DNA of 33,518 nt from a virus. The position numbers and the translations under genes are program-made. Below, piece after piece: positions 537-33,518 of the stretch. The notes beneath the pieces are model-generated. The model was not told where the DNA came from. It saw only the letters and a program-made list of their open reading frames with translations, and did no database searches. The stretch spans positions 1-33,518 of the IMG/VR virus record IMGVR_UViG_3300025151_000153; one strand, given 5' to 3'. Position 1 is the first letter of the stretch, and every line of letters starts with the position of its first letter.

Positions 537-3500
537 TTAGCCATACATGGCTTGTTCTACTAAAGTTGTACTTGCTTCACCGGTTTTCCTCAACGTATTT
601 CCGCCTTTTCTTCCGCTTGCATTCTTTGTTGCAGCTTCGTGAACACTCTGCATTGCCCCGATGAACATTGGAGTCAGAGTGTTTGTCATCGCAATCCCTG
701 AGAGATTGGTTAACAATGCGCGGTCGTCCCATGAAATTCGTTTTCCTTGATTAGATAGCTTAACTTGAATGGTCTCTATAAGCTCTTGAGACTCTATGGG
801 GTAAAACTCTCTGTATGCATTGCCTTCTGCTTTTGTCAGCGTACCGGCTATCATTTTGTCCGCCACTACGTTGGTTCCACCAATTCCAATTTCTGCAATA
901 CTCATAAACTTAGAGACATCCGCATCAGACCGGGTGATTTCATTTTGACCTGTTATTGGGTCGTAGTTCATTGCACCGTCCGTTGAGGCTGCATCGGCAA
1001 GAATACCCGCGTGTTTTGCTACTCCTAAAAACAGCTCTTCTCTTAGCTTAGGAGCTTCGGCCAGCTCCCTGGTTGATGACTCTAATCGAGAATGAAGAAA
1101 GTCAGGGTCAGCCAACTGGCCCATCTGATTCATTGCAGCTCTAGCATCATCTCTAGGGTTGCCTGTTGCCTTAACTCCAAGCAAGGCCAAGAGAACAGGT
1201 AGCGCTCTTGCTTTTTGCGGAGCCCCTGGTTTTGTGTTTTTTACTATGCGATTAACAACCTGCGTGGCTCTCTTGTTGAGATTAGAGGCAACCAATGACT
1301 TAACGCCATGAATCGCTGCTCTTCTTTTGAATCCGGCTGCAGGTGTTACAAGTGCAGAAGTTGCCCCGGAAGCCAGATAGCCAAGTGGTCCTCCTGCCAT
1401 TAATCCGCCAAGAGGCAAAGCTGCCAGCATTGTATTCATTGGAGAATGAACAGAATAAATTTCTCTGTATGCCCTCTGAACATCTCCAAGCTCATCGGTT
1501 TTTGTTTTTAATGCCTTGTAGCTTTTTGACAAGCTGTCTACAGTTTGAGTCTTGCTTGCAGACAAAAGAGTATTTTTTCCGTACTCTTTTTCAATTGTTT
1601 TTAGGAATCCATCGTAGTTATTTACAAACTCCTGAAAAACTCTAAACGAGTCACTTTGTTCTGGCCTATATGCATCTTTAAGAAAAGACCTAATCCCAGA
1701 CCATTTTGCAACACGTCCTTTTCGCTGCTCTTCTCCAAAATCTCTTGTTACTTTGTAATCTTTTTCAAGTGGCGGAGTTCTGTCATGCTTAACAGAGCGG
1801 TCAATTAAGTCTTCAAGTTTTTTATTAAGCTCATTTAAGGTCTCAGCTTCGGGGTCTGTTATTTTTGATTTCTTAGCCTTTTCTACTGCTTTTCTTGCCT
1901 TATCTACTTCTTTCTTAAAAGCTCTGCCCATTTCCTCATGGTCAGCAACAGCTTTTCTAAAAGTTTCTCTGTTGGCAGCCTCATCTAAACCAAGGCCGGG
2001 TCTTGCGTTGGTAAGCTCAATTGACTCTTCAACAACCTCGTTAAGCTCTTTGCGTATGGCTTCCATTTTGGCTGTTCTGGCAGCGTCAGGAAAAAACTTA
2101 TCTTTGACAGGCTCCTGAAGAACATCTTTTTGAGACTTTAAGTTTTTTATAGTCTCAGTTAATTCGTCAAGTTTTTCGGCAACCTCTTGGCTTGTAGTGC
2201 CTTCGGGCCAATTCCAGTTATCATAATACCCTTGATATTTCTTAAGGGATTCTTCAGCATCAAGAAGCTTGGACTCAATTAGCTCAATTTCTTTGCTTTT
2301 TTTAGCGGCACCAGGGGATGCGGCTTGCTTCATTCTTCCAAGGTTGCCTCTTAGTGAGCCTGCCTTTTTATCGAGAACCTCTAGCTTTTTGCGGTAATCA
2401 ACAACGCTCTCGATTCCATCATCAAGAGTGTTTGCGTGATTTTTTGCTGCCAAAAGAGATGCATCTAATTGCTGAAAAGCGCCCTCAAGTTCATCTGCGT
2501 CATATGTCCTACTGGCTCTAAGTCTTTTTCTGAAATCAACAAGAATATCAATTTGGTCATCAAGGGCCTTGGATTCCGCTGTGGCCATAACAGTGGCTTC
2601 ACCCTCAGTGGCTGCCCTGCTGGCCATACCAAGACCTTCTCTTTCGCCTTCCCCTGTAAACTTTTTTAGAAACCGATGGTACGACGGGAGAAGCTGAGTA
2701 AAGGCTCTGTTTGTTTCTCTTTGCCTTGTGGCTGCCTTTGTCCCAAAAAGAGAACCGTCTTCAAGAGTGTTTTTAAGAGAATGGTAAACATCGACCAGGG
2801 GGTTACCTGACTCCATGATGTTATCAACACCGGAGCCAGACCTTTTATAAATAACCTTCCCTATTCCTCTCTTAAAGGAGTCAAGGGTTATAAATAATTC
2901 CGGCAAAACACCGTCAACCATGTTTTGGCTTAGCAGGTCGCTGGTCTTGTACGTGTCTTTAAAGCTAAAATTTGGAAGCTCTACGTCTTTTGCAAATGCG
3001 GCTCGAAGCTGTGGGCCATACACGGCAATAGCAACATCGCCCTCAGCTGCGTTTTTTGCAACCATTGAAGCAATTTGGTCTATTTGTTTTTCTAGGCCTT
3101 TTTCAATTTTATTGAGAGCCGTTAGCTCTCCTCCGTCCGCAACAAGCTTATCTTTTTTTGCTGACTTTACTTTTCTTAAAGCTGCGTGAAGCATAGCAAT
3201 GGATTCATCAATTGCGCCCAGTGGGTCCTCTGATTCAACAACATCACGCATCAGTCGTTTTTTCTCAGAGCCACTAACCGAGCGAGTAGCAAGCTCAAGG
3301 CCATCTATTGCATCATCAATAAACAGAGCCACTTGGTCAGCTGTTTCTTCTGCAATTTTTCCATGCCCAAAGATTACTTTATGGGCATACTCTGAATTTA
3401 AAAGCTTTCTGTATGTCTCTTTGTCTCCGCCATGCATGGCAGACAAGATGCTGGATTCCCAGTCCTTGGCTTTTTCTGCTACAGCTTTGCCATACTTGCT

Positions 3501-4298
3501 TTGATTGACAGCGCTCAAGCCCTTGCCGATTAGTGGAGAGGCAAGACCAAGAACGCCGCCGAGACCGCCAGACAGAGCCATAATCCCTCCGACATGGGAA
3601 AGCATTTGCTCCGCTGTTCTGTCAGCTCTTCCCAGCATTTGCTCAGAAAATCCGTCAACAGCCCCAAACAAGGCACCCTCTACGGTTGCAGCACCCGTGA
3701 GAGCTGCGCCGCCTTGAATCATTTTATCGGCAGTTTTAGCCAGCTCAAATCCTGCTACGGATTCTCCTGCGCCCAGTCTTTTTGCAATGGCTTTTTCTGC
3801 CGCAATACCTGCCTTTGCGCTTAGTCCCGCAACCGTCCCTTTTGATAGACCCTGAGCCAAGAGACTGGTTCCGCCGGAGGCCAGTGCAGGAGCAACAGCA
3901 CCAGTAAGCTCACCTGCCAAAGAAATGTTTGGGTTGTACTTCTCTAGCTTTGCAAGCTCTTCTTCTGAATAAAGGTCAAGCCTATCAAGAAGAACATCGC
4001 TTAATCCAAAAGACAAACCACGGGCCACGGCTAAGCCCCCAGCCTCCAGGTTCCTCTCGTCATACTCAGCAGATTCAATTCGCTCTTGTCGAACGTCTGC
4101 TTGGTCATACGTAGCGCCAGCTCTAAAGGCATCCTGAAGATGCTCAGAAGATATGGTTCCGTAGCGCCCATCTGGCAGCTGAATATTTACTTCAGTATTA
4201 GACGGAAAGGCATACAGTCCGCTCATATAGGCTTCTTGGACCTGCTCCTCTGGAATATCTACCCAGCCGCCTTGTCTCTTTGAAAATAAACGCGCCAT
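537..4298 (-). CDS. Giant internal virion / DNA-ejection type protein
   Basis: This 1253-aa protein is the longest product in the window. After a short N-terminal region (about residues 1-95) come Gly/Ala-rich hydrophobic stretches around 125-260, such as SLLAQGLSKGTVAGLSAKAG. Long charged coiled-coil segments follow (about 340-400, 580-870), then a second hydrophobic Gly/Ala/Leu stretch around 985-1020. Hydrophobic patches amid coiled coils are typical of podovirus internal proteins that leave the capsid before the DNA and span the cell envelope. I see no lytic transglycosylase or peptidase motif. It starts 3 bases after the 519-aa gene. The ejection role is inferred from size, composition and position. 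Confidence 0.75.
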   Translation of the reverse strand: MARLFSKRQGGWVDIPEEQVQEAYMSGLYAFPSNTEVNIQLPDGRYGTISSEHLQDAFRAGATYDQADVRQERIESAEYDERNLEAGGLAVARGLSFGLSDVLLDRLDLYSEEELAKLEKYNPNISLAGELTGAVAPALASGGTSLLAQGLSKGTVAGLSAKAGIAAEKAIAKRLGAGESVAGFELAKTADKMIQGGAALTGAATVEGALFGAVDGFSEQMLGRADRTAEQMLSHVGGIMALSGGLGGVLGLASPLIGKGLSAVNQSKYGKAVAEKAKDWESSILSAMHGGDKETYRKLLNSEYAHKVIFGHGKIAEETADQVALFIDDAIDGLELATRSVSGSEKKRLMRDVVESEDPLGAIDESIAMLHAALRKVKSAKKDKLVADGGELTALNKIEKGLEKQIDQIASMVAKNAAEGDVAIAVYGPQLRAAFAKDVELPNFSFKDTYKTSDLLSQNMVDGVLPELFITLDSFKRGIGKVIYKRSGSGVDNIMESGNPLVDVYHSLKNTLEDGSLFGTKAATRQRETNRAFTQLLPSYHRFLKKFTGEGEREGLGMASRAATEGEATVMATAESKALDDQIDILVDFRKRLRASRTYDADELEGAFQQLDASLLAAKNHANTLDDGIESVVDYRKKLEVLDKKAGSLRGNLGRMKQAASPGAAKKSKEIELIESKLLDAEESLKKYQGYYDNWNWPEGTTSQEVAEKLDELTETIKNLKSQKDVLQEPVKDKFFPDAARTAKMEAIRKELNEVVEESIELTNARPGLGLDEAANRETFRKAVADHEEMGRAFKKEVDKARKAVEKAKKSKITDPEAETLNELNKKLEDLIDRSVKHDRTPPLEKDYKVTRDFGEEQRKGRVAKWSGIRSFLKDAYRPEQSDSFRVFQEFVNNYDGFLKTIEKEYGKNTLLSASKTQTVDSLSKSYKALKTKTDELGDVQRAYREIYSVHSPMNTMLAALPLGGLMAGGPLGYLASGATSALVTPAAGFKRRAAIHGVKSLVASNLNKRATQVVNRIVKNTKPGAPQKARALPVLLALLGVKATGNPRDDARAAMNQMGQLADPDFLHSRLESSTRELAEAPKLREELFLGVAKHAGILADAASTDGAMNYDPITGQNEITRSDADVSKFMSIAEIGIGGTNVVADKMIAGTLTKAEGNAYREFYPIESQELIETIQVKLSNQGKRISWDDRALLTNLSGIAMTNTLTPMFIGAMQSVHEAATKNASGRKGGNTLRKTGEASTTLVEQAMYG

Positions 4299-4301
4299 TG
4301 G

Positions 4302-5861
4302 TTAGTTGCCTTGCTTAAAGTCCCAGTTTTCTGCTTCTGCCCTATCAGATAACGCTTTTGCCTCTTTCGTGACCACTACTTCTCCGTGCTGGGCTTCCCA
4401 TGCCTTGGTCAAAAATCCGGGCCTTAAAGCTCCTGCCCTGGCAACCATAAGAGTCAGGTTATCTTTAATGGCCTTAAACTGGGCCATCCCAACATCTTGG
4501 TCAGCAGAGGATTCAGGAAACATTTGAACAAAAATTTGAAAATCTTTTTCTGTTGGCCGCCCACCATCAAATGCTTTTGTAAGTGCCTTTGCGTTAAGAT
4601 TTTTGCCGTTCTCGTATTCTATTTCTTCTGACATTCCAGCAAACCATGACTTAATGGTCCTAGGCAAAACCAAGCCCCAGGCTCCCTGTATTGCGCTAAC
4701 CTTTAAAAAGTCTTTTTGAAGCTCAGGAAGCAAGTTAATGGTCTTGAGTGCTAATTCAGTAGACTGGTCCCGCTTAGCCCGCGCCGCCCCGCTCCTAGCC
4801 TGGAACTGAGCTTCTTTAACCGTGATTTCTGCCAGCAGCTTTCTGTTGCCAAGATGCAGTTCTTTTTGCTTAGAGTCCATTTTTGCCAAGCCCGCATTTA
4901 TTACCAGCTGAGCGTTTGCGCCTTTATGTTTTCTTAAAAGACCCTGCATTTTCATGCCTGCATGTTTAAATGCTAAAGCCATGGTTGCATTGTAAGCAAC
5001 TTCTTCATTGTTAAACCTTGCCATCATGCGAGCATAGATGTTGTTTCTGTTTAAAAGAACATCTTTCTTTTTCTGCATCTCTGTTTTTTGAGCATCAATA
5101 TCTCTTTTGATTGCTCCTTCAATTATCTGCAAGGCAGAGTTTGGCATCTGCCCCCTGGACATGCCTTGAGCAAATGACCCAAGAGCAATAGCAATTGCCG
5201 CCGCCACCTTTGAGCCAGTAGAAGAAAAAGCTCTATTGGGGTCAATTTTACTATTGTTGTAGTCATCCTCTAGCTCAGCTGTGCCCTTGTCGTAATCATC
5301 CAGTTTGGCCCTGTTGATTTTCTGCATGGTTTCAAGAGCTTTGACCTGTCTGCCGTACTCTCTTTCTTGCTTATCAGCCAACTCATTCTCTTCAGAAAGC
5401 TGCCCCGCCTTTGCTTCTGCCAGTCTTTTCTCTGCTAGTCGCTGCGCATCATAAGCCGCATCCAGCTCTCGTTGACCGGCGTAAATTTGCCCCCTTGCTC
5501 TGTCCCAATCAGACATTGGCTCTTCTTGAGGGGTGGCTTCTTCGGGTGTGGTTGCAAAGGTAACGTCAGGAGTTTGCTCTTGGGGCTTTTCTTTGCTTTC
5601 GCCCATAGCAGCATATTTTTTTACAGCTTCTGTTGCAGAAATATTTTGTTCTTTTGCAATTTTTAAAATTGCCTCAGCTCTTTGTTTGTCGGCTAGCTGT
5701 TTGTCAGATCTTTTTTGAGCCGCCTCTTTTCGCTTTTGCTCTTTTTGTTTTGCCTGTCTTTCTTCTTCTTCTTTGATAAGCGCTCTTCTTAGCTGATTTT
5801 GAGGCAATTCAGCCTCTCGGCGCTGCGCCTCTATTGCGGCCATTTCTCCCACTAATGCCAT
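4302..5861 (-). CDS. Coiled-coil internal virion protein
   Basis: The 519-aa protein is highly charged. Residues about 10-90 and 120-205 are rich in Glu, Lys, Arg, Gln and Ala and should form long coiled coils. A small hydrophobic Ala/Ile patch (KVAAAIAIALGSFAQGMSRG, about 220-240) follows, then more helical sequence. The same mixture is seen in internal core proteins of short-tailed phages. It lies between the 248-aa and 1253-aa proteins, and the four probably form one ejection complex. No enzyme motif is visible. Confidence 0.7.
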   Translation of the reverse strand: MALVGEMAAIEAQRREAELPQNQLRRALIKEEEERQAKQKEQKRKEAAQKRSDKQLADKQRAEAILKIAKEQNISATEAVKKYAAMGESKEKPQEQTPDVTFATTPEEATPQEEPMSDWDRARGQIYAGQRELDAAYDAQRLAEKRLAEAKAGQLSEENELADKQEREYGRQVKALETMQKINRAKLDDYDKGTAELEDDYNNSKIDPNRAFSSTGSKVAAAIAIALGSFAQGMSRGQMPNSALQIIEGAIKRDIDAQKTEMQKKKDVLLNRNNIYARMMARFNNEEVAYNATMALAFKHAGMKMQGLLRKHKGANAQLVINAGLAKMDSKQKELHLGNRKLLAEITVKEAQFQARSGAARAKRDQSTELALKTINLLPELQKDFLKVSAIQGAWGLVLPRTIKSWFAGMSEEIEYENGKNLNAKALTKAFDGGRPTEKDFQIFVQMFPESSADQDVGMAQFKAIKDNLTLMVARAGALRPGFLTKAWEAQHGEVVVTKEAKALSDRAEAENWDFKQGN

Positions 5862-16455: not shown

Positions 16456-17877
16456 TTAGTTTAGTGTCCATCTGTCCTGCCACCATGGTCCATCAACAGC
16501 ACTGTTTTTTGCCAAGGTTGATTCCCACATGCGTCGCTCTTCTTTGCTCCAGCCTTCTGGAGTCGTGTCGATTTCTTCTTGAAAGGTATAGTGCCGACTT
16601 TCGCGCCACATATAAAGCGCAGCATCACTTAAGTGGTTGTCAAAGCGAGCATCTTCGCGCTTTCCTGAGTCATCCCATTGCAAAATATCCCACTCTTTCA
16701 GGATTTCTCTGTCGATGATTTTAAGCTTACCTGTCGCAAGGTCATCATTCATCATCTCGATGTAGGTGACCTTGTTTCGCTTCTCGGCAGCCTTGAGCGG
16801 AAGCCCGTGCCTTTTTCTAAATTCCTCAACAATCGATTTACCCAGACCGCCCGTATCAGCCACCATGCCAATGAAGTGGTAGGTGTTTTCCATGGAGCGT
16901 ATTTCTTCAGCAATCTCTGTTGGTAGCATGTGGCTTTTCTTAAAAGAATCCACAATGTACAAATCTGGCAAGTCTCGGCAAAACGCACCCACCACAAAGG
17001 CCGTGGCATCTTCATAGCCTAAATCCACCCCCAGCACGTATTCCCAATCATGGTCATGACTCAGTGTGTCAGCTAGGTTTTTCTCGCCATACTTATAAAT
17101 CAGGCTATCGTCAGATTTGACCCACTGGCCTCGCCACTCACGCATATAAACCGGGCTAGTATCTGACCAGCCGCGTTTTTTCCTTCTGTCTGCAAGCCAC
17201 TTAGATGCATGAGGAACATGCGGGTTTTCCAGAATGGTCCAAGAATGATTCGAGTATTCATCCCTAAGCCCAGTTGTGGCTTCAAAGAAAATCCCCGAGC
17301 AATGACTTGCCGGGGTCCCAATCATTGCCAATGTGCCATCGTAATCGATTAGGGCAGGTTCTAAAACTTCCTCAATAAGAGAAGTTAAGTGAGGACCAAA
17401 AGATGCGGCCTCATCAATAACAACCAGCTGGTACGCAGAGCCCCGGAGCTTATCAATCTCAGCCTCATCATCTGCACCAGACATAATGATTTGAGAACCG
17501 TTGGGAAGAATTGCAATAAGCTCCGAGGCGTTGAATTTAATGCCCAGCATGTATTTCTTATCAGCCATCTTTAGCTCTCGCCACATCAGCCGTTTGGCCG
17601 ACCGACGAGTCAGAGCAATATATGCACAAATGGTGTGGGGAGATTGGTGCGCTGCCTCCAGCAAGTAATAGCACGAGGCATATGTCTTGCCCGCACGTCT
17701 GGAACACAGCGCGGTCTTGGTTTTACATGGATCGTCGATGAAGTCCAACTGATAATTGAATAAATCATCTCGCCACTTGTAGACGCGCTCGCCACTGACT
17801 TCTTCCTCTGTCAGGGCAGAGGTATCCGCTTTTCTTTTGACCAGTTCGCGGATTATGTCGTGGCGTTCGTACTTCAT
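16456..17877 (-). CDS. terL: Terminase large subunit (packaging ATPase and nuclease)
   Basis: This 473-aa protein drives DNA into the procapsid and cuts the concatemer. The N-terminal ATPase has a Walker A variant SRRAGKT (59-65) and Walker B VVIDEA (152-157), with the catalytic Glu at 156. The C-terminal RNase H-like nuclease shows the usual acidic residues: D285 in GVDLGYED, D341 in VADTGG, and D418 in NHLSDAA. Length is normal for the family. The ATG overlaps the TGA of the preceding 74-aa gene. No intein or break is seen. Confidence 0.95.
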   Translation of the reverse strand: MKYERHDIIRELVKRKADTSALTEEEVSGERVYKWRDDLFNYQLDFIDDPCKTKTALCSRRAGKTYASCYYLLEAAHQSPHTICAYIALTRRSAKRLMWRELKMADKKYMLGIKFNASELIAILPNGSQIIMSGADDEAEIDKLRGSAYQLVVIDEAASFGPHLTSLIEEVLEPALIDYDGTLAMIGTPASHCSGIFFEATTGLRDEYSNHSWTILENPHVPHASKWLADRRKKRGWSDTSPVYMREWRGQWVKSDDSLIYKYGEKNLADTLSHDHDWEYVLGVDLGYEDATAFVVGAFCRDLPDLYIVDSFKKSHMLPTEIAEEIRSMENTYHFIGMVADTGGLGKSIVEEFRKRHGLPLKAAEKRNKVTYIEMMNDDLATGKLKIIDREILKEWDILQWDDSGKREDARFDNHLSDAALYMWRESRHYTFQEEIDTTPEGWSKEERRMWESTLAKNSAVDGPWWQDRWTLN

Positions 17878-18098
17878 GCTACTTTCTTGGGACGACCCCG
17901 TGCAACCTTCTCAATCTTCATCCAGCTAATAGCTGTCAAAGGAATGACAAACGTTCCTTTGGTTTTGTGGCTAACAGTCACAAAGTCCTTCTCCAGTTTC
18001 AAATCATAATCAGCATAATTTGGATTCTCAACGCTTATATAATTGTTGTTAAGAAGTGGTTGTGATGTGCTGTTTAACTGTATCGCTAAAACCTTCAT
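17874..18098 (-). CDS. Small protein with AT-hook-like basic tail
   Basis: The 74-aa protein has a beta-rich body and ends in KVARGRPKKVA. GRP flanked by basic residues is the core of an AT-hook, a minor-groove DNA-binding motif. It overlaps the large terminase start by 4 bases and abuts the acetyltransferase-like gene. Involvement in packaging or DNA binding is a guess from this context. I recognise no family. Confidence 0.55.
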   Translation of the reverse strand: MKVLAIQLNSTSQPLLNNNYISVENPNYADYDLKLEKDFVTVSHKTKGTFVIPLTAISWMKIEKVARGRPKKVA

Positions 18099-18506
18099 TT
18101 AGGTGTCCTCCATAAACGCTTTTAAAACATCAGCATGTTGCAGCTGAGGGCTATAAATTATTCTATCTGTCATCCACGGGGCCATATAAGCAGCCATTAC
18201 AGGCTCGCGCAAACCGGCCTTCTCAATCAGCCGCTTACCAACCCCGAACCCCCGAAAGGGCTTTTTCACATACATAAACTGAGCAACTGGCCCAACGTGG
18301 CAAATCCACCCGGCAATCGTATCATCATCGCCCTCTGGTGTGGCAACCCAAACACTGCCCATCTCCATCGCGCCTTTTATAATCTGAGTCTGTAATTTAA
18401 ACACAGCCCACTTTGGCTGCTGCCGATTCAGCCCAGCATAAGCCCTTGTCCACGATGAGAGTATAAAGTTGGTGTCCGCCTCACCAGCCTGCCTAATATC
18501 TATCAC
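18099..18506 (-). CDS. GNAT-type N-acetyltransferase-like protein
   Basis: The 135-aa protein carries the acetyl-CoA-binding motif A of the GNAT fold as RGFGVGKRL (85-93), preceded by a beta strand (AQFMYVKKPF), with an N-terminal IRQAGEADTNFI pattern typical of GNAT beta1-alpha1. It is somewhat short for the family (usually about 150 residues), and the C-terminal strand pair is not obvious. It sits in the packaging operon with ATGA overlap to the 100-aa gene. The substrate is unknown; modification of a host or virion protein is possible. Confidence 0.65.
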   Translation of the reverse strand: MIDIRQAGEADTNFILSSWTRAYAGLNRQQPKWAVFKLQTQIIKGAMEMGSVWVATPEGDDDTIAGWICHVGPVAQFMYVKKPFRGFGVGKRLIEKAGLREPVMAAYMAPWMTDRIIYSPQLQHADVLKAFMEDT

Positions 18507-18805
18507 TTGCCCAAAGTCTCCCGCGCCAGCTTCTCCAGCTCCTCATCAGACAATTGACTCAGCGCATCATCCTTTTGCATATCATCAATCGTCTTCAGCG
18601 CCCTGACCAAGTCGCCAACCACCTTGATGTCATTGGGCTCCATGTCCCGAGCCTCGGCGGTAAAGATTGCACCCTCTAGTCCCATGGCCAGGAGAGCCAT
18701 GAGCTTATGACGCACCTCGGCAAGAGAGGCGGTTTCAACCACCTCGTGCTCTGGCTCTTTGGCAGCAACCTCTTCATCGAGCAGGTCATTTGCCCAGTCA
18801 CTCAT
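18503..18805 (-). CDS. Small acidic helical protein, candidate small-terminase part
   Basis: This 100-aa protein is acidic and entirely helical in appearance, with SLAEVRHKLMALLAMGLEGA in the first half and an acidic C-terminus around QLSDEELEKLARETLGK. It overlaps the genes on both sides. No helix-turn-helix is seen. Small terminases of tailed phages commonly join an N-terminal DNA-binding domain to a helical ring-forming region. Here the 82-aa gene could supply the first and this gene the second. That split is inference. Confidence 0.5.
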   Translation of the reverse strand: MSDWANDLLDEEVAAKEPEHEVVETASLAEVRHKLMALLAMGLEGAIFTAEARDMEPNDIKVVGDLVRALKTIDDMQKDDALSQLSDEELEKLARETLGK

Positions 18806-19046
18806 CGCTAAGCTTCTCCAGGAATTTCATCTTCAGCTCTTTGAGCCGGTTAAGTGAATGCTCATAGCCGTGGGAGTAGTGGGCCTTGTTGTGGATAATT
18901 TTGCCAACCATGGAGCGAGAAACCCCGAGGGCATTGGCCAGCAGCTGCAACGACGGAAGTGTGTTGGTGAGATAAGCTTGGCGTATCATCTCTACTTTTT
19001 GTTTGGAGACCAGCTCCTCTATGGGCCTTCCCGGTGCGCGTGACAT
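18798..19046 (-). CDS. Helix-turn-helix DNA-binding protein, small terminase or regulator candidate
   Basis: The 82-aa protein begins MSRAPGRPIEE with an AT-hook-like GRP, and has a clear helix-turn-helix at about 31-52 (PSLQLLANALGVSRSMVGKI), of the kind seen in small terminase N-domains and in regulators. It is the first gene of the leftward arm and the nearest gene to the palindrome array. A role in recognising that array, for packaging or for transcription control, is plausible but unproven. The start is the only good ATG in frame. Confidence 0.65.
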   Translation of the reverse strand: MSRAPGRPIEELVSKQKVEMIRQAYLTNTLPSLQLLANALGVSRSMVGKIIHNKAHYSHGYEHSLNRLKELKMKFLEKLSDE

Positions 19047-19084: not shown

Positions 19085-19134
19085 AGAATATTGGTTATCT
19101 GGGAATTGTCAACTAAAATTGAAAATCTGGGAAT
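19085..19134 (-). promoter_or_regulatory. Leftward promoter with operator-like repeats
   Basis: On the minus strand a perfect -35 TTGACA (19107-19112) is followed after 16 bases by TATTCT (19085-19090), 39 bases before the start of the HTH gene. A 10-bp direct repeat reading ATCTGGGAAT on the plus strand stands at 19097-19106 and 19125-19134, flanking the -35 box 28 bp apart, and a looser copy lies near 19153. These are placed where a regulator would control leftward late transcription. Confidence 0.5.
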
Positions 19135-19140
19135 AAAAAT

Positions 19141-19165
19141 TCTAATTGCAGAAACGGGAATTAGA
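19141..19165. repeat. Inverted repeat upstream of the leftward promoter
   Basis: TCTAATT (19141-19147) pairs perfectly with AATTAGA (19159-19165) across an 11-base spacer. It lies just outside the direct repeats of the leftward promoter. It could be another operator or a small DNA hairpin. There is no T-run to make it a terminator. Confidence 0.4.
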
Positions 19166-19252
19166 GGCGCCGGAGAGTTGGGAGGGTGGCATTTAAGGTA
19201 AGTACCGGGTATCGCGACCGGGGATAGGTACCCCCTTGCGATATCCTGCGTG

Positions 19253-19448
19253 TTGCATTTTGCGACATTCTCATGTTGCGACATTGTTGCAAAATGAGAC
19301 AATCTCAAATTGCGAATTCGCAGAACGAGAATTCTCAAATTGCGACATTTTTTCATAATGAGAATTCGCATAATGCGACAACATCTCATTATGGGATTTG
19401 TTGCATATTGAGACAACGTCTCAAATTGCGAATTGTTGCATATTGCGA
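19253..19448. repeat. Array of twelve 13-bp inverted-repeat elements
   Basis: Twelve elements of the form TNNCA-N3-TGNGA follow one another, starting at 19253, 19269, 19287, 19303, 19318, 19333, 19351, 19366, 19384, 19401, 19419 and 19436. One (19318) begins its right arm with C instead of T. The central three bases are almost all A/T. Only 2-5 bp separate neighbours, so start-to-start distances are 15-18 bp. TCTCA-AAT-TGCGA occurs exactly three times. Arms vary only at the third and second-from-end positions (TGCGA, TGAGA, TGGGA). This is not a CRISPR array: units differ, and there are no spacers. It looks like a multi-site protein-binding region such as origin iterons, a packaging site or a centromere. 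Confidence 0.85.
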
Positions 19449-19479: not shown

Positions 19480-19502
19480 TTGGTCCTATAAAATAGGACC
19501 AA
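19480..19502. repeat. Perfect 23-bp palindrome (copy 1)
   Basis: Ten-base arms TTGGTCCTAT and ATAGGACCAA surround AAA, giving a perfect inverted repeat. A diverged copy lies at 19530-19552, and the arm core (AGTCCTATTTT, inverted orientation) recurs at 19514-19524 between them. There is no terminal T-run, so a protein-binding palindrome or hairpin is more likely than a terminator. Confidence 0.75.
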
Positions 19503-19529
19503 TTTTAGAGTCCAGTCCTATTTTGAGAT

Positions 19530-19552
19530 TTGGTATTAAAAAATAGGGCCAA
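19530..19552. repeat. Diverged second copy of the 23-bp palindrome
   Basis: This 23-bp segment begins TTGGT and ends TAGGGCCAA. It matches the perfect palindrome 50 bp to the left at 18 or more of 23 positions but has lost symmetry in its left arm. The equal length and 50-bp spacing argue for duplication of an operator or initiator site. Confidence 0.6.
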
Positions 19553-19948
19553 TAGAAGTAAATGCATTCTTTCAAATCACTGTAAGTTATTGAAATAATT
19601 GAAGAAAATCGACTTATTTCAGCACTTATATTGAGGGAAAATAGTGGTAAGTCGGGGTAAAAAGCCTAATAAAATCAGGTAGTTAGGGTGGATTTAGGAT
19701 GTATAGTATATATATCCTTTTATTATATATATAGTATTCTACTAACCTACCTCTCTCTACTCCTCCCTACCTCTCTCTCTACCTATAGAAATAAAAGAAA
19801 CAATGAAACAACCCAATTTCCTTAACAATTCCAACCACTTACAACTGTTTTTTATCACTTTATCCTCAAGTAATAACTCAGTATTAAATAAATTCCCTAA
19901 TGATTACAGTATGTTAACAAAAAAAGTACTTTTAACAAAACAAAAGAC

Positions 19949-19976
19949 TTGTATACCTGTTAACATCCTGTATACT
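19949..19976 (+). promoter_or_regulatory. Rightward early promoter candidate
   Basis: A -10 box TATACT (19971-19976) lies 30 bases before the ATG of the first rightward gene, with a weaker -35 TTGTAT at 19949-19954 and a 16-base spacer. GTATAC occurs in both boxes, with palindromic GTTAAC between them, so a regulator could bind here. The -35 match is poor, hence moderate confidence. Confidence 0.4.
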
Positions 19977-20005
19977 AAACACATAACAGCCTGAGGAGAG
20001 AAAAC

Positions 20006-22323: not shown

Positions 22324-23244
22324 ATGAACCATTTATTATGGCAAGGCCGTAGTGCGCTCAATAATGAGCCGATTGCGCTTATATCTAAGACTTCTGGCAA
22401 CAAAAAGGTAAAGGGCAAGCGCTCCAACATCTTGGCGTTTGCTGTAATTCCCATGGCGACAATTGACGCCATCAAAAGGGATGAAGCTAAGCGTCCAGGC
22501 GCTACTCCTATTCAACGGTCTAAGGTTTACTTGGCTTCTATGAAATCAGGCGCAATCGATAGCGCGTGCGATGATGCGTGCGAGCATAAAGGAACACTCA
22601 AATGCTATGCGCAATTCAATGCGCAATCTGTGACAGAACCCGTCTCTATGATTTTGGGCGTCAATGATTTTGGTAGAGGCCGTCATCATTTTATGGGTCG
22701 CAATGGTTGGAAGCTATCGCCCAAAAAACTAGCAAGCGCTTTAGGGTATGGAGCCGGGGACAAGTTCCGCCTAATGATTGTAGGCTCTACCGGTGCATTG
22801 CCTGAGCATATCTCAACACGTCTAATCAATGACCTTGAATCGCTTGGCATGCGTTCGCTTGCATACGTCGAAAATTGGCGGGCCCGCCAAGACTTGCGCG
22901 GTTCTCATATGGCAAGCTGTTATTCACTGGACGATGTGAGGGAAGCCGAGTCAATGGGATGGCGTGCGTTTTGGTCTCCAGCTGCCGAGGATATCGGCAA
23001 CACTATACCGGATGGGATGTTACTTTGCCCGGGCTCTAAATACTATGAGAACCTAAAAGGCAAGCGCATAGGGTGTGGCGATTGCGGACTATGTGACGGC
23101 GCCTCAAACAAGTCATCCATCATTAATATCAGGCATGGCAACGGGGATTTATCCCGGGTATCCGGGCTGGTCCGACGTGGTGCATTATCAAGTATGATTC
23201 TAAACAATTCTGGACGCGCTATGGGTGCGTATGTGGGGGCATAA
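22324..23244 (+). CDS. Cysteine-rich conserved phage protein, unknown enzyme candidate
   Basis: The 306-aa protein follows GTAGGGTGAACAAATG, with a good ribosome-binding stretch. It has two cysteine groups: C82-x3-C86-x7-C94 followed by YA, and near the C-terminus C235 with C251-x2-C254-x2-C257. A central region (MIVGSTGALPEHISTRLIND, about 151-170) looks like a beta-alpha unit. Cys groups with a CYA-type ending are seen in phage radical-SAM-fold families such as DUF5131, but the spacing here is not the CxxxCxxC of classical radical-SAM enzymes. A metal- or iron-sulfur-binding protein is likely. The reaction is unknown. Confidence 0.65.
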   Translation: MNHLLWQGRSALNNEPIALISKTSGNKKVKGKRSNILAFAVIPMATIDAIKRDEAKRPGATPIQRSKVYLASMKSGAIDSACDDACEHKGTLKCYAQFNAQSVTEPVSMILGVNDFGRGRHHFMGRNGWKLSPKKLASALGYGAGDKFRLMIVGSTGALPEHISTRLINDLESLGMRSLAYVENWRARQDLRGSHMASCYSLDDVREAESMGWRAFWSPAAEDIGNTIPDGMLLCPGSKYYENLKGKRIGCGDCGLCDGASNKSSIINIRHGNGDLSRVSGLVRRGALSSMILNNSGRAMGAYVGA

Positions 23245-24257: not shown

Positions 24258-24606
24258 ATCTGCTCTCCAACCAATCAATAGCGGCTTGGCTTCCCCTGGC
24301 CACAAAATAAATCCAGCCGTTGCTCTCTAAAATATCTCTCCATTGTTTCTGACTCTTGGATAGCGTGCCGCCCTTGGTTCGTTTCAGCTCGATAGCTATC
24401 ATGGGTTGGCCTATTAGGATGCAATCTGGCACGCCCGGCGATACGCCAAATGACTTGAGACGACTAGCAACGGCTTTGTGCCTATGCTCCCCATTAGGAA
24501 CGTGAAACCAGTGATAGCCCTTGGAGTTAAGATAGGCGGCGAGCCTTGTTTGCTCCCATGCCTCACTCTTAACTGGCTCTTTCTTATTTCGTCCGATTGT
24601 AGACAA
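24256..24606 (-). CDS. VRR-NUC family nuclease
   Basis: This small PD-(D/E)xK nuclease is of the virus-type replication-repair (VRR-NUC) family, found alone in phages and fused in FAN1. Using TTG 24606 as start (AAGGA about 10 bases upstream) it has 116 residues. The order is typical: an N-terminal Glu-rich helix (SEAWEQTRLAAYLNSKG), HVPNGEHR, GVSPGVPD with D61, IAIELKR with E73 and K75, and a C-terminal VARGSQAAIDWLE. There is no ATG in frame; TTG at 24663 would give a longer overlap with the primase gene. It probably cuts branched or nicked DNA during replication. Confidence 0.85.
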   Translation of the reverse strand: MSTIGRNKKEPVKSEAWEQTRLAAYLNSKGYHWFHVPNGEHRHKAVASRLKSFGVSPGVPDCILIGQPMIAIELKRTKGGTLSKSQKQWRDILESNGWIYFVARGSQAAIDWLESR

Positions 24607-26668
24607 TTGATGGCCGTCCTTTCTTGGGTCGCACTTGCTTTTGTTCAATGCGTCGTGAATCAATCAAGTCTTTAATGATTCTGTTTCGCTCGTCTCTGCT
24701 TATTGCCTGGGTTTTACGTGTCAGGTCACTGGACTTGATACCTCTCTTAGGAATGAACTGTAGAACGGTTTTAAGTTTTCTCTCATAGTCTGTATCTGCC
24801 ACGCGCTCGACAACGTCCGCGATACTCACGTTGATAAGATACTCGATAAGCTCACAGCCCCACGTGATATCGTCTAGAGATATCTTGGGCTGGCGATAAT
24901 CTAAACCAATAGCACGCACCATCGATATCTTAACCGCATGCTCATAAGCCCGTGACCACATGGGGTCCATGCCTGCTTGCCTGCTGTCTACCATTTTAGT
25001 ACGCATTCGTTTGGCATATGCTGTCAGATATTCCTGGGCGTCATCATCGATATCTAACGTATGTAGTTCGATATCTTTAACACCGCTCGATACCGTTACG
25101 CCTTGCTTGGTTCTGATATATTCTGTGACCTGCTCAAAATATTTTAAGAGGCCAGCCGGTGGACTCAGGTCATCCGGGACATTCATCTCAGGCATGTGGC
25201 CACCGATATCAAAAATGATAAGCCGGTTTAAAAATCCATCCATAACCTGTGTGGACTTCAAGCTCTCATAGAAGTGACTTGGGGTTGTGGTCCCATACAC
25301 TGATACACATGGCTGATAGATATCAATCCTTGGCCGATTGCCATCGGTATCGGCATATTGCATCCCTCGAAACATTCCCTTAGACCGTCCGAATAATTCC
25401 ATTAGAGTTGTCATAATATCTTTACGATACGTGGCAGCCCTGCCATCGGTCACAGATTTAAGAAACAATCCAAACTCATCGATGGACATCATGGTGGCTG
25501 GATTCTTTTGCACATGCTTAAGCAAGCCCTGAGCGCTCGACATGCGGCCAGTTCCTATTCGGTCACCTTGCCCAATGTCTGTAAAGATTTGGTCCGCACA
25601 ATGCATAGGATGCTCTTTGCCTGAGCCTGAGTAGCCGATACCCACTGTATAGATATTGGTTCTAAGGTTTGTTTTAGAGCGATAGTATCTACCGTAAAGC
25701 GTGCCCAGGACAGGAAGAGCAGCTGCCAATGCTAGGATGGGCTGAGGATAAATAGCCGTGCTATTGATAAAATGGCAGACAGCGCCAAGGGCACCGGGCA
25801 CATTTAAAAACTTACTAGGAAATACCCGCTCATCCAGGTCCGTGTCTGGTACGTCAAACTCAGGGATAGCCACTTCCTCGATAGCAACCGGAATTGCTTC
25901 ACTCGGATTATTCTCAATATGTGACTTAAGAATACTTGCAACCGTTGCGTCCACTTCTGCTTGCATAAGCGGATTGTCGTTTTGATTGTTCCATTCGTTG
26001 GCCTGCTTAACCACAGACAGGATATCATCACCCTTAGCAACGTATTGTCCAACCATAGAGGCCAGTGCATTGTTGCGTCCACCTTCTGCCACAGGGCTTC
26101 CGTCGTGTGGCTCTCTTACTTGCTCGGTATCAAAGATGTATTCCCCAGAGGAGTCAGTCCCATTATAAGAATAGATGGTGCTAAGGTTTTCTTGAGGCAA
26201 TGGAGGAAGCTCATCTGCCATCGTAATCATGCAGCCGCTATCAATCTTCCACTGATACAGTTTGCCGCTAGGGTGTACACTGGGCGGCGCCACTACATAA
26301 CCGCCACGTCCCCTTATATCTACCTTGCCCTTTTCATTTACAGAGTTAGGCACCACGCCATTAATCCCATAATAGAAATGAGCGCCACGGGCAGTCTTAA
26401 CTTTCCATGGTGTGGGCGGTAGGTTGTCACCTATCCAGCGAATTGTATCGTTGGTATCAGCGTCCACCACAATACAGTTGACACCAGTCACAACACCCAC
26501 GTTTGCATCTGGCCACTTTGTCCACCAGCTTTCTATCTCTTCCTCTGTTGGCTCTCTCTCCTGAAATTCCTTCCAAGCAATTAAAGGTTTTTTCCCTCTT
26601 GGTTTTAACGGTATCACGCGCAATCCGTTGTCCCACATTGAACGGGCAGCTTCCCCCAATTCTGACAT
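24584..26668 (-). CDS. Primase-polymerase fused to helicase-like domain
   Basis: ATG 26668 has GGAGGGTGAT upstream and is preferred over a TTG five codons earlier that lies in that sequence. The 694-aa product starts with a primase-polymerase (Prim-Pol) domain: the conserved Asp pair at D69/D71 in VVDAD, H97 in GAHFYYG, and D117 before GRGGYVVAPPS. GGRNNALASMVGQ (about 196-208) is a primase C-terminal-type motif. The C-terminal half resembles the DUF3987 helicase-like domain, with GYSGSGKE (345-352) as Walker A and MSIDEFG (394-400) as Walker B. The usual Ser/Thr after the Walker Lys is Glu. It should prime and drive phage DNA replication. Confidence 0.85.
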   Translation of the reverse strand: MSELGEAARSMWDNGLRVIPLKPRGKKPLIAWKEFQEREPTEEEIESWWTKWPDANVGVVTGVNCIVVDADTNDTIRWIGDNLPPTPWKVKTARGAHFYYGINGVVPNSVNEKGKVDIRGRGGYVVAPPSVHPSGKLYQWKIDSGCMITMADELPPLPQENLSTIYSYNGTDSSGEYIFDTEQVREPHDGSPVAEGGRNNALASMVGQYVAKGDDILSVVKQANEWNNQNDNPLMQAEVDATVASILKSHIENNPSEAIPVAIEEVAIPEFDVPDTDLDERVFPSKFLNVPGALGAVCHFINSTAIYPQPILALAAALPVLGTLYGRYYRSKTNLRTNIYTVGIGYSGSGKEHPMHCADQIFTDIGQGDRIGTGRMSSAQGLLKHVQKNPATMMSIDEFGLFLKSVTDGRAATYRKDIMTTLMELFGRSKGMFRGMQYADTDGNRPRIDIYQPCVSVYGTTTPSHFYESLKSTQVMDGFLNRLIIFDIGGHMPEMNVPDDLSPPAGLLKYFEQVTEYIRTKQGVTVSSGVKDIELHTLDIDDDAQEYLTAYAKRMRTKMVDSRQAGMDPMWSRAYEHAVKISMVRAIGLDYRQPKISLDDITWGCELIEYLINVSIADVVERVADTDYERKLKTVLQFIPKRGIKSSDLTRKTQAISRDERNRIIKDLIDSRRIEQKQVRPKKGRPSIVYNRTK

Positions 26669-26711
26669 TATATCACCCTCCAAGGTTTATCAGATTATAT
26701 TTTGATTATTC

Positions 26712-31560: not shown

Positions 31561-31758
31561 ATGACTAAAGTTAAGACAAGTTATTGTCAGGGGTGCATTC
31601 GAACGGAAGTAACGCTTAAGCTTACAATGGCAAATGGGCGACCATACTGGTTGTGCAAAAAATGCCTGAACCCTCTGCCGAGGGAATCTTACAAAAAAAA
31701 TGATGAGTCTGAGTCCAGAAGAGCCTGGGGAGATTCTAAGTATGAAAACAAAGGGTGA
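31561..31758 (+). CDS. 65-aa zinc-ribbon protein
   Basis: ATG 31561 with GGGGGGC upstream is preferred over an earlier in-frame start that would translate the hairpin region. The product has CQGC (about residues 9-12) and CKKC (about 33-36), a two-CxxC zinc ribbon separated by a beta-hairpin-like stretch, then a charged tail ending in ENKG. It precedes the PP-loop gene by 4 bases and may act with it. Confidence 0.6.
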   Translation: MTKVKTSYCQGCIRTEVTLKLTMANGRPYWLCKKCLNPLPRESYKKNDESESRRAWGDSKYENKG

Positions 31759-31760
31759 AC
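31742..31760 (+). repeat. 19-bp direct repeat, copy 1
   Basis: ATGAAAACAAAGGGTGAAC is present exactly at 31742-31760 and again at 32538-32556. Each copy encodes the C-terminal residues NKG of the gene before it, its stop, and the ribosome-binding site of the gene after it. The two copies thus bracket the PP-loop gene. A similar ribosome-binding section (GTAGGGTGAACAAATG) precedes the 306-aa gene. Confidence 0.8.
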
Positions 31761-31762
31761 CA

Positions 31763-32554
31763 ATGCAGCACATAGTTATGTACAGCGGAGGGCTAGGTAG
31801 CTGGGCTACCGCAAAAATTGTTATTGAAAGGCATGGGACAGAAAACACAACTCTTCTCTTTGCCGACACGCTCATAGAAGATGAGGACCTTTATCGCTTT
31901 CTGGACGAAGGGGCCAAGTATCTCGGCGTAGAGTTTACTCATATTGCCGAAGGCAGAACGCCGTGGGAGGTATTTTACGATACGAGGTTTCTCGGCAATA
32001 GCCGAGTAGGCAACTGTTCAAAGATTCTCAAAAGAGAATTTATTCATAAGTGGATAAAGAAAAGATACAAGCCAGACGAATGCATTATGTATCTAGGCAT
32101 AGATGCGACAGAAGAGCAGAGATTAATAAGGGCGCAAAAATGGTGGGACCCTTACATTGTGGAGTCACCACTAACAGAGCCGCCTTTTTATGATTATGCA
32201 ACCCTGAAAAAATGGCTAGAGGATGCAGGCATCGAGCTGCCATCTCTTTATAAGCTTGGGTTTGCGCATAACAACTGCGGCGGCTTTTGTGTCCGTTCTG
32301 GCCAAGGGCAGTTTGCTCACCTGCTTAAAGTTTTTCCAGAAAGATATGCTTACCATGAAAAGAAGGAGGAGGAGATAAGAGAATACCTTGATGCCAATGT
32401 GGCAATACTCAGGGACAGGAGAGGAGGGAAGTCTAAGCCAATGACACTTAAAGCTTTTAGGACAAGGCTTTCTGAGAAAGATAAAAATTTAAATCTATTA
32501 GAATGGGGCGGGTGCGATTGCTTTGCCCCGGTCAATAATGAAAACAAAGGGTGA
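31763..32554 (+). CDS. PP-loop ATP pyrophosphatase (PAPS-reductase-like)
   Basis: I use ATG 31763, with GGGTGA about 6 bases upstream; an in-frame ATG at 31742 would overlap the previous gene. The 263-aa protein belongs to the adenine-nucleotide alpha-hydrolase superfamily: the PP-loop is SGGLGS (8-13), with Gly where many members have Asp. C85 (NCSKILKRE), LGID (111-114), HNNCGGFC (169-176) and CDC (251-253) could form a redox or metal site. Relatives include PAPS reductase, tRNA-thiolation and DNA-phosphorothioation enzymes. Which reaction it performs is not visible. Confidence 0.8.
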   Translation: MQHIVMYSGGLGSWATAKIVIERHGTENTTLLFADTLIEDEDLYRFLDEGAKYLGVEFTHIAEGRTPWEVFYDTRFLGNSRVGNCSKILKREFIHKWIKKRYKPDECIMYLGIDATEEQRLIRAQKWWDPYIVESPLTEPPFYDYATLKKWLEDAGIELPSLYKLGFAHNNCGGFCVRSGQGQFAHLLKVFPERYAYHEKKEEEIREYLDANVAILRDRRGGKSKPMTLKAFRTRLSEKDKNLNLLEWGGCDCFAPVNNENKG

Positions 32555-33190: not shown

Positions 33191-33518
33191 TTAGCGCGGC
33201 CAGTTGTACTTGAACCATCTGGCCGCCTTTGCTTTTTCTGGGGAAGCTCCCCGCGTGTCGAAATGTACAAAGTTCTCGTACAGCCCCAGCCCAAAACCAG
33301 TGCCTAGTCTGCGAGCTGCGTTTTCTAGTTCGATATACAGCCGCAACATATAAGCACCGTGGCGCTTAGTCGCGTCTACATAAGTAACATCGGCAGCGTA
33401 GCAAGTACCATCTCGCGGGAGATGCCAGCTCTTCGATGCACCGCCTACCGCTTTATTGTGTTGCTCGCACCGGTACGATGAGTTGATTCTTAACGGGCCT
33501 AATTGCTTGCGCACGCTA
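33191..33518 (-). CDS. M15 family peptidase / endolysin (partial at right edge)
   Basis: The frame runs off the right edge, so the N-terminus is missing; a GTG at 33514 is probably internal, because the domain has already begun upstream. The visible part shows the M15A pattern: LRINSSYRCEQHNKAVGG, the zinc ligand His in KSWH, Asp in YAADV, and His in FVHFDTRG. Peptidases of this family cut peptide cross-bridges or stem peptides of peptidoglycan, so lysis is the likely job. It faces the rightward genes, with a 46-bp gap that holds no clear terminator. Confidence 0.75.
   Translation of the reverse strand, partial: SVRKQLGPLRINSSYRCEQHNKAVGGASKSWHLPRDGTCYAADVTYVDATKRHGAYMLRLYIELENAARRLGTGFGLGLYENFVHFDTRGASPEKAKAARWFKYNWPR

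Follow-up and report, generated by a model that had tools for sequence, protein, structure and literature searches.

A tandem dyad array between the divergent early and late genes of an uncultured marine phage, a candidate replication origin

What is the role of a dozen closely packed dyads in the non-coding DNA between the late and early genes of an uncultured marine phage? Replication origins are hardly ever located in uncultured phages, and an iteron grammar at the early/late divergence would make candidate origins predictable from sequence. The stretch of DNA analyzed here (the window) is a 33,518-bp IMG/VR record of an uncultured marine podovirus-like phage; the record is probably incomplete, since a circular permutation of it, G003 (33,769 bp), holds about 4 kb of additional content. 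Its leftward late genes include those for a helix-turn-helix (HTH) protein, a small-terminase-like (TerS-like) protein, a GNAT-like protein, a 74-aa protein, the large terminase (TerL), the portal and the major head protein. On the rightward arm lie small early genes and a replication module encoded by the window itself, with a Prim-Pol gene on the opposite strand. As the sequence-only reading had it, the array lies where these two arms diverge, in the 959-bp intergenic region that separates them. Relatives are grouped below by TerL identity to the window, at least 92% in clade A and 67–69% in clade B. The features that bear on the question are the following.

16456–17877, minus strand: large terminase (TerL)
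18503–18805, minus strand: 100-aa protein with a helical hairpin, probable small-terminase core; homologues at the equivalent place in all lineages
18798–19046, minus strand: 82-aa HTH protein, encoded at the head of the late operon; array binding not supported
19085–19134, minus strand: putative HTH/late-operon promoter (TTGACA 19113–19108, 17-bp spacer, TATTCT 19090–19085)
19162–19242, no strand: GC-rich block with core GCGACCGGGGATAGGTACCCCCT, separating the array from the late operon; also beside the G024 array
19253–19448, no strand: dyad array of 12 tandem 13-bp units, T[C/T][G/T]CA-(A/T-rich N3)-TG[C/A]GA, period 15–18 bp; conserved in L007, L008, L010 and L011
19461–19477, no strand: TGACGCACTGCATTGCA, a partial dyad in the sequence
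19480–19502, no strand: perfect palindrome in the sequence, TTGGTCCTAT-AAA-ATAGGACCAA
19526–20005, no strand: A/T-rich stretch adjoining the array, about 70% AT (intergenic DNA is AT-rich in general), candidate unwinding region; parts kept in clade B
24584–26683, minus strand: Prim-Pol / PriCT / DUF3987 replication protein, C-terminus (residues ~635–699) winged-helix-like; candidate initiator

Composition of the array and its surroundings

Eleven units match TNNCA-N3-TGNGA exactly (starts at 19253, 19269, 19287, 19303, 19333, 19351, 19366, 19384, 19401, 19419 and 19436), and the unit at 19318, TCGCA-GAA-CGAGA, completes the twelve with one mismatch. Arms and 3-bp centre are in register in 12 of 12 units at a mean period of 16.6 bp, and the gaps between units are, in order, 3, 5, 3, 2, 2, 5, 2, 5, 4, 5 and 4 bp; the fixed centre and the 2–5 bp gaps described by the sequence-only reading are thus correct. 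Its unit formula needs one restriction, in that the centre is not freely variable but is pure A/T in 10 of the 12 units. The alternation of TGCGA and TGAGA arms that it reported is not borne out, as there are six arm types (TGCGA, TGAGA, TGCAA, TGAAA, TGGGA and CGAGA) in no strict order. Over the whole window and both strands TNNCA-N3-TGNGA occurs 24 times against 5.5 expected, a count attained by none of 100 shuffles; the densest 200-bp cluster holds 11 units, and no shuffle (200 of the whole window and 2000 local) gave more than two. The array is real.

Words resembling TGACRCANTGCGT reappear close to the arrays of relatives, and the A/T-rich stretch contains TATA repeats (19703–19737) and a polypyrimidine run (19746–19784). 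The putative late-operon promoter overlaps a pair of ATTCCC repeats (19087–19106 and 19115–19134), which clade B retains.

Tandem dyads in non-coding DNA might also be expected of the partition centromere of a plasmid-like prophage. However, a scan of about 35 proteins found no ParA, ParM, TubZ or centromere-binding gene, and we consider this role very improbable.

Exchange of the repeat word and candidate binding proteins

The array is present in every clade A contig that reaches the region, with unit numbers of roughly 9–12; the units beside the GC block are nearly invariant and the variation lies at the far end. The two ends of one 35,705-bp contig, G037 (IMGVR_UViG_3300030097_000532; loci L247/L248), overlap through the array and carry two different array variants, and array length therefore varies inside one population. 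Clade B retains the gene order, the HTH gene and the promoter-side ATTCCC repeats, but 10-bp TTGCCATACG repeats take the place of the array. Farther lineages carry other words (TACAT-N5, GATATCATTA, CCTGAA and CGGAAAT), some of them without any HTH gene. A word that is exchanged among close relatives, next to a GC block that persists, is a natural experiment on whatever reads the array.

No match to TerL of at least 60% identity turned up in 50,697 phage records, and a search with the portal gave no match of any kind; Prim-Pol relatives of at least 93% identity are clade A contigs only, three of which stop short of the array site. A BLAST search for similar arrays in annotated phages and plasmids returned nothing of substance, and the search for integrated relatives or hosts gave a single distant MAG contig. 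One 68-kb contig (G008) carries two TerL genes, 68% and 46% identical to that of the window, and is likely two joined phages or a chimera.

Which protein would bind the array? The sequence-only reading tied the array to the adjacent HTH gene, and it had named related phages with the same genes and no such array as evidence that would speak against it. Clade B phages are of exactly this kind: their HTH orthologue (49–52% identical, with the recognition helix SRSMxGKII kept) sits beside a different 10-bp repeat. In addition, L029, L031 and L032 have no HTH gene and nonetheless carry arrays. We therefore reject the HTH protein as array binder; the ATTCCC pair, which is conserved together with it, is a possible and better operator for it than the array. 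The phrog_2554 protein (22324–23244) is missing from G003, which bears the array, and was likewise discarded.

The most likely binder, by analogy with the P4 alpha protein and pRN1 ORF904, in which primase, helicase and a C-terminal winged helix are combined in one origin-recognizing protein (PMC4234260), would be the C-terminal domain of Prim-Pol. The analogy is incomplete, in that pRN1 has a stem-loop rather than iterons and the winged helix of the window protein is itself a prediction. Since Pfam does not recognize a winged helix in this C-terminus, we treat it as a lead only. Prim-Pol is 99% identical in the window and G003, and its probable winged helix diverges between clades A and B more than the rest of the protein does. 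No phage protein tested co-varies with the repeat word: clades A and B have Prim-Pol proteins that are 57% identical and different words, and clade B and L032/G014 have the word in common but not the replication module.

The array as a proposed iteron-type origin

We favor the reading of the array as a replication origin of the iteron type, placed where early and late genes diverge, and give it a probability of about 0.45. The main reason is that the dyad grammar recurs in genes for O-like initiators and that the lambda iterons share its half-site distance. A scan of viral contigs that required two adjacent dyads gave, besides clade A, 17 independent groups (by our own grouping). In five of these (L174, L183, L172, L191 and L170) the dyads lie within a gene, just past a winged-helix domain, which is HTH_36 in four and a weak match in the frame of L170; the chance of five such cases is about 2e-5, if such genes take up 2% of a phage genome. 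Four of the five dyad-bearing proteins match PHROG "replication initiation protein / O-like" families, and annotated relatives found by tblastn are named replication initiation or O-like proteins and have repeats of their own at the equivalent position in the gene. The annotated lambda iterons, TCCCTC-AAAAC-GAGGGA, can be written CTC-N5-GAG and the window units CTC-ANNNT-GMG, with the same distance between half-sites. The sequence-only statement that no phage array with this grammar had been described was thus too strong, given the lambda geometry and the near-identical word in O-like initiator genes; the dyad form is already known, and what is new is the intergenic composite with its swapped words.

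The window array and the in-gene iterons of lambda ori and O-like genes are alike in being tandem hyphenated dyads of equal half-site distance with adjoining A/T-rich DNA, a richness common in intergenic DNA. They differ in that the window has 12 units (4–6 in the known systems) at a spacing of 15–18 bp (20–24 bp there) and that its array is intergenic. A search of the window for an HTH_36 or O-like gene found none, the best HTH_36 match being one of 12 bits on the 82-aa HTH protein. The dyad grammar alone is insufficient as proof of an origin, since similar dyads also occur at non-origin places, namely as coding repeats in L184 and L199 and in a baseplate gene in L179/L182. The L199 contig, G023 (IMGVR_UViG_3300030109_004670; marine, 24 kb), has TCKCANNNTGMGA 36 times, scattered within coding genes, and an additional coding array at 4287–4578 (SQSAN repeats); for 10.9 kb of the contig, 30 dyad sites are found against 0.04 expected.

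The origin is favored also because the mapped origin of the lactococcal phage c2 lies at a similar early/late divergence. In Ceduovirus phages (c2, bIL67 and 923) the mapped origins lie in non-coding DNA where the early and late modules diverge and fall into three sequence types (PMC7150918). The gene map puts the window array in such a place, and the sequence types are exchanged between related phages, as are the repeat words among relatives of the window. On the other hand, the Ceduovirus origins need no other phage protein to function in plasmids, and the host and genes of these phages are unrelated to those of the window phage. Thus a real and conserved array, a place and word swaps like those of Ceduovirus, and a replication module of its own support an origin; the lack of an O-type initiator gene in the window and the failure of the word to follow the replication protein count against it, as do the base-composition data and the phage G024 described below.

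For the window array we infer binding, DNA opening, origin activity and the identity of the binder. A dimeric initiator would occupy each 13-bp dyad through its two 5-bp half-sites on either side of the 3-bp A/T centre, as fits the earlier suggestion, a sensible one, of a protein that binds dyads at a strictly fixed half-site distance; of the three roles proposed with it (origin iterons, a pac site and a partition centromere), origin iterons are the best. The crowded dimers could then form a single nucleoprotein complex over about 200 bp, whose strain would open the adjoining A/T-rich DNA (19526–20005), and the opened DNA would be loaded with Prim-Pol/helicase, an SSB-like protein and a helicase.

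A GC-skew minimum at 19 kb was considered as evidence for an origin and rejected, as it tracks gene direction and vanishes at fourfold sites; fourfold sites in the window gave no replication signal. Two relatives, G011 and G015 (L147–L150), have a strong excess of T over A at fourfold sites on one strand, whatever the gene direction and with no switch at the array, a bias that fits one-directional copying.

Packaging and host-factor readings

The array always adjoins the terS-terL operon, with the identity of TerS itself probable, and the intervening GC block is the intergenic element with the widest conservation among relatives. Packaging might therefore initiate here, with the GC block being cut or recognized by the terminase and the array serving as a cosB- or pac-like assembly site for the small terminase (the 100-aa core, perhaps with the 82-aa HTH protein). 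Phage SPP1 likewise has its pac repeats next to the terS promoter, where SF6 carries another pair of repeats (PMC4737164); in these systems, as in the window, the repeats beside this promoter differ from one related phage to the next, although SPP1 pac consists of three small sets of direct repeats and the window has a long dyad array. Two contigs (L115 and L126) start within the GC block, but contig ends are ambiguous as evidence of packaging. However, the HTH and TerS-like proteins of clades A and B are related (the HTH recognition helix is nearly identical) and their words differ, so that the word does not co-vary with either protein. Furthermore, many contigs cross the site, the window and G003 are mutual circular permutations, G037 overlaps itself through the site, and the L041-type block is spanned by six of the eight contigs that have it. 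A Foldseek search with a model of the 100-aa protein found no significant match. We regard packaging as unlikely, and place it behind control by a host factor (below).

Two neighbors of the TerS-like gene deserve mention. The GNAT-like protein (18099–18506), between that gene and TerL, is retained in all lineages, down to 26–33% identity, and the small protein right before TerL (17874–18098 and homologues) has an AT-hook-like RGRPKK end in several lineages.

The contig G024 (L171/L226), from the same source metagenome as G003, bears on all of these readings. Apart from a decoration-like protein of the clade C/G008 type, no late-gene homology to the window family was detected in it, TerL and portal included, and its O-like initiator has in-gene TGTCA-N3-TGACA iterons. 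At a separate locus TCTCA-N3-TGCGA/TGGGA units come after a block that resembles the window GC block; no other match in the entire locus scores as high as this block, and 1 of 1000 shuffles attains its score. The gene to the left of the block has terminase-like motifs by eye, but profile and database searches gave no confirmation of a large terminase, which weighs against packaging. To judge from its sequence, G024 indicates that the composite of GC block and array can exist beside a different origin, and the packaging and host-factor readings therefore stay alive.

In the latter, a host or widely shared DNA-binding protein would regulate the diverging promoters of the early and late genes, or organize the DNA, and the word would track the host. 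This is consistent with a word common to window-type phages and the apparently unrelated G024, with TTGCCATACG arrays common to clade B, L029/L031/L032 and contigs without a detected family gene such as G034, with the lack of co-variation among the phage proteins tested, and with the 36 dyads in 24 kb of G023. Against it, a dozen sites packed this closely is a large number for an operator, the motif was not traced to any host genome, and the samples have only the metagenome in common. It is possible but improbable, and we rank it next after the origin. In a broader form, which we find more doubtful than either packaging or control by a host factor, the GC block and array would be one composite cis element at the early/late divergence of marine phages, its word swapped as a cassette that tracks host or sample rather than any phage protein, and its reader a host DNA-binding protein serving origin, packaging or late control. 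If the word does follow the host, it would give a sequence-based clue to host identity.

G034 (L230; 54.7 kb) has nine TTGCCATACG-type 10-bp repeats, the clade B word, at 3411–3516, and no window-family gene was detected in it. Elsewhere in the window, a PAPS-reductase-like auxiliary gene lies at 31700–32554. A 107-aa ORF (33191–33514) is 93–96% identical in the otherwise distant lineages G003, G012 and G018, which suggests its recent exchange between lineages.
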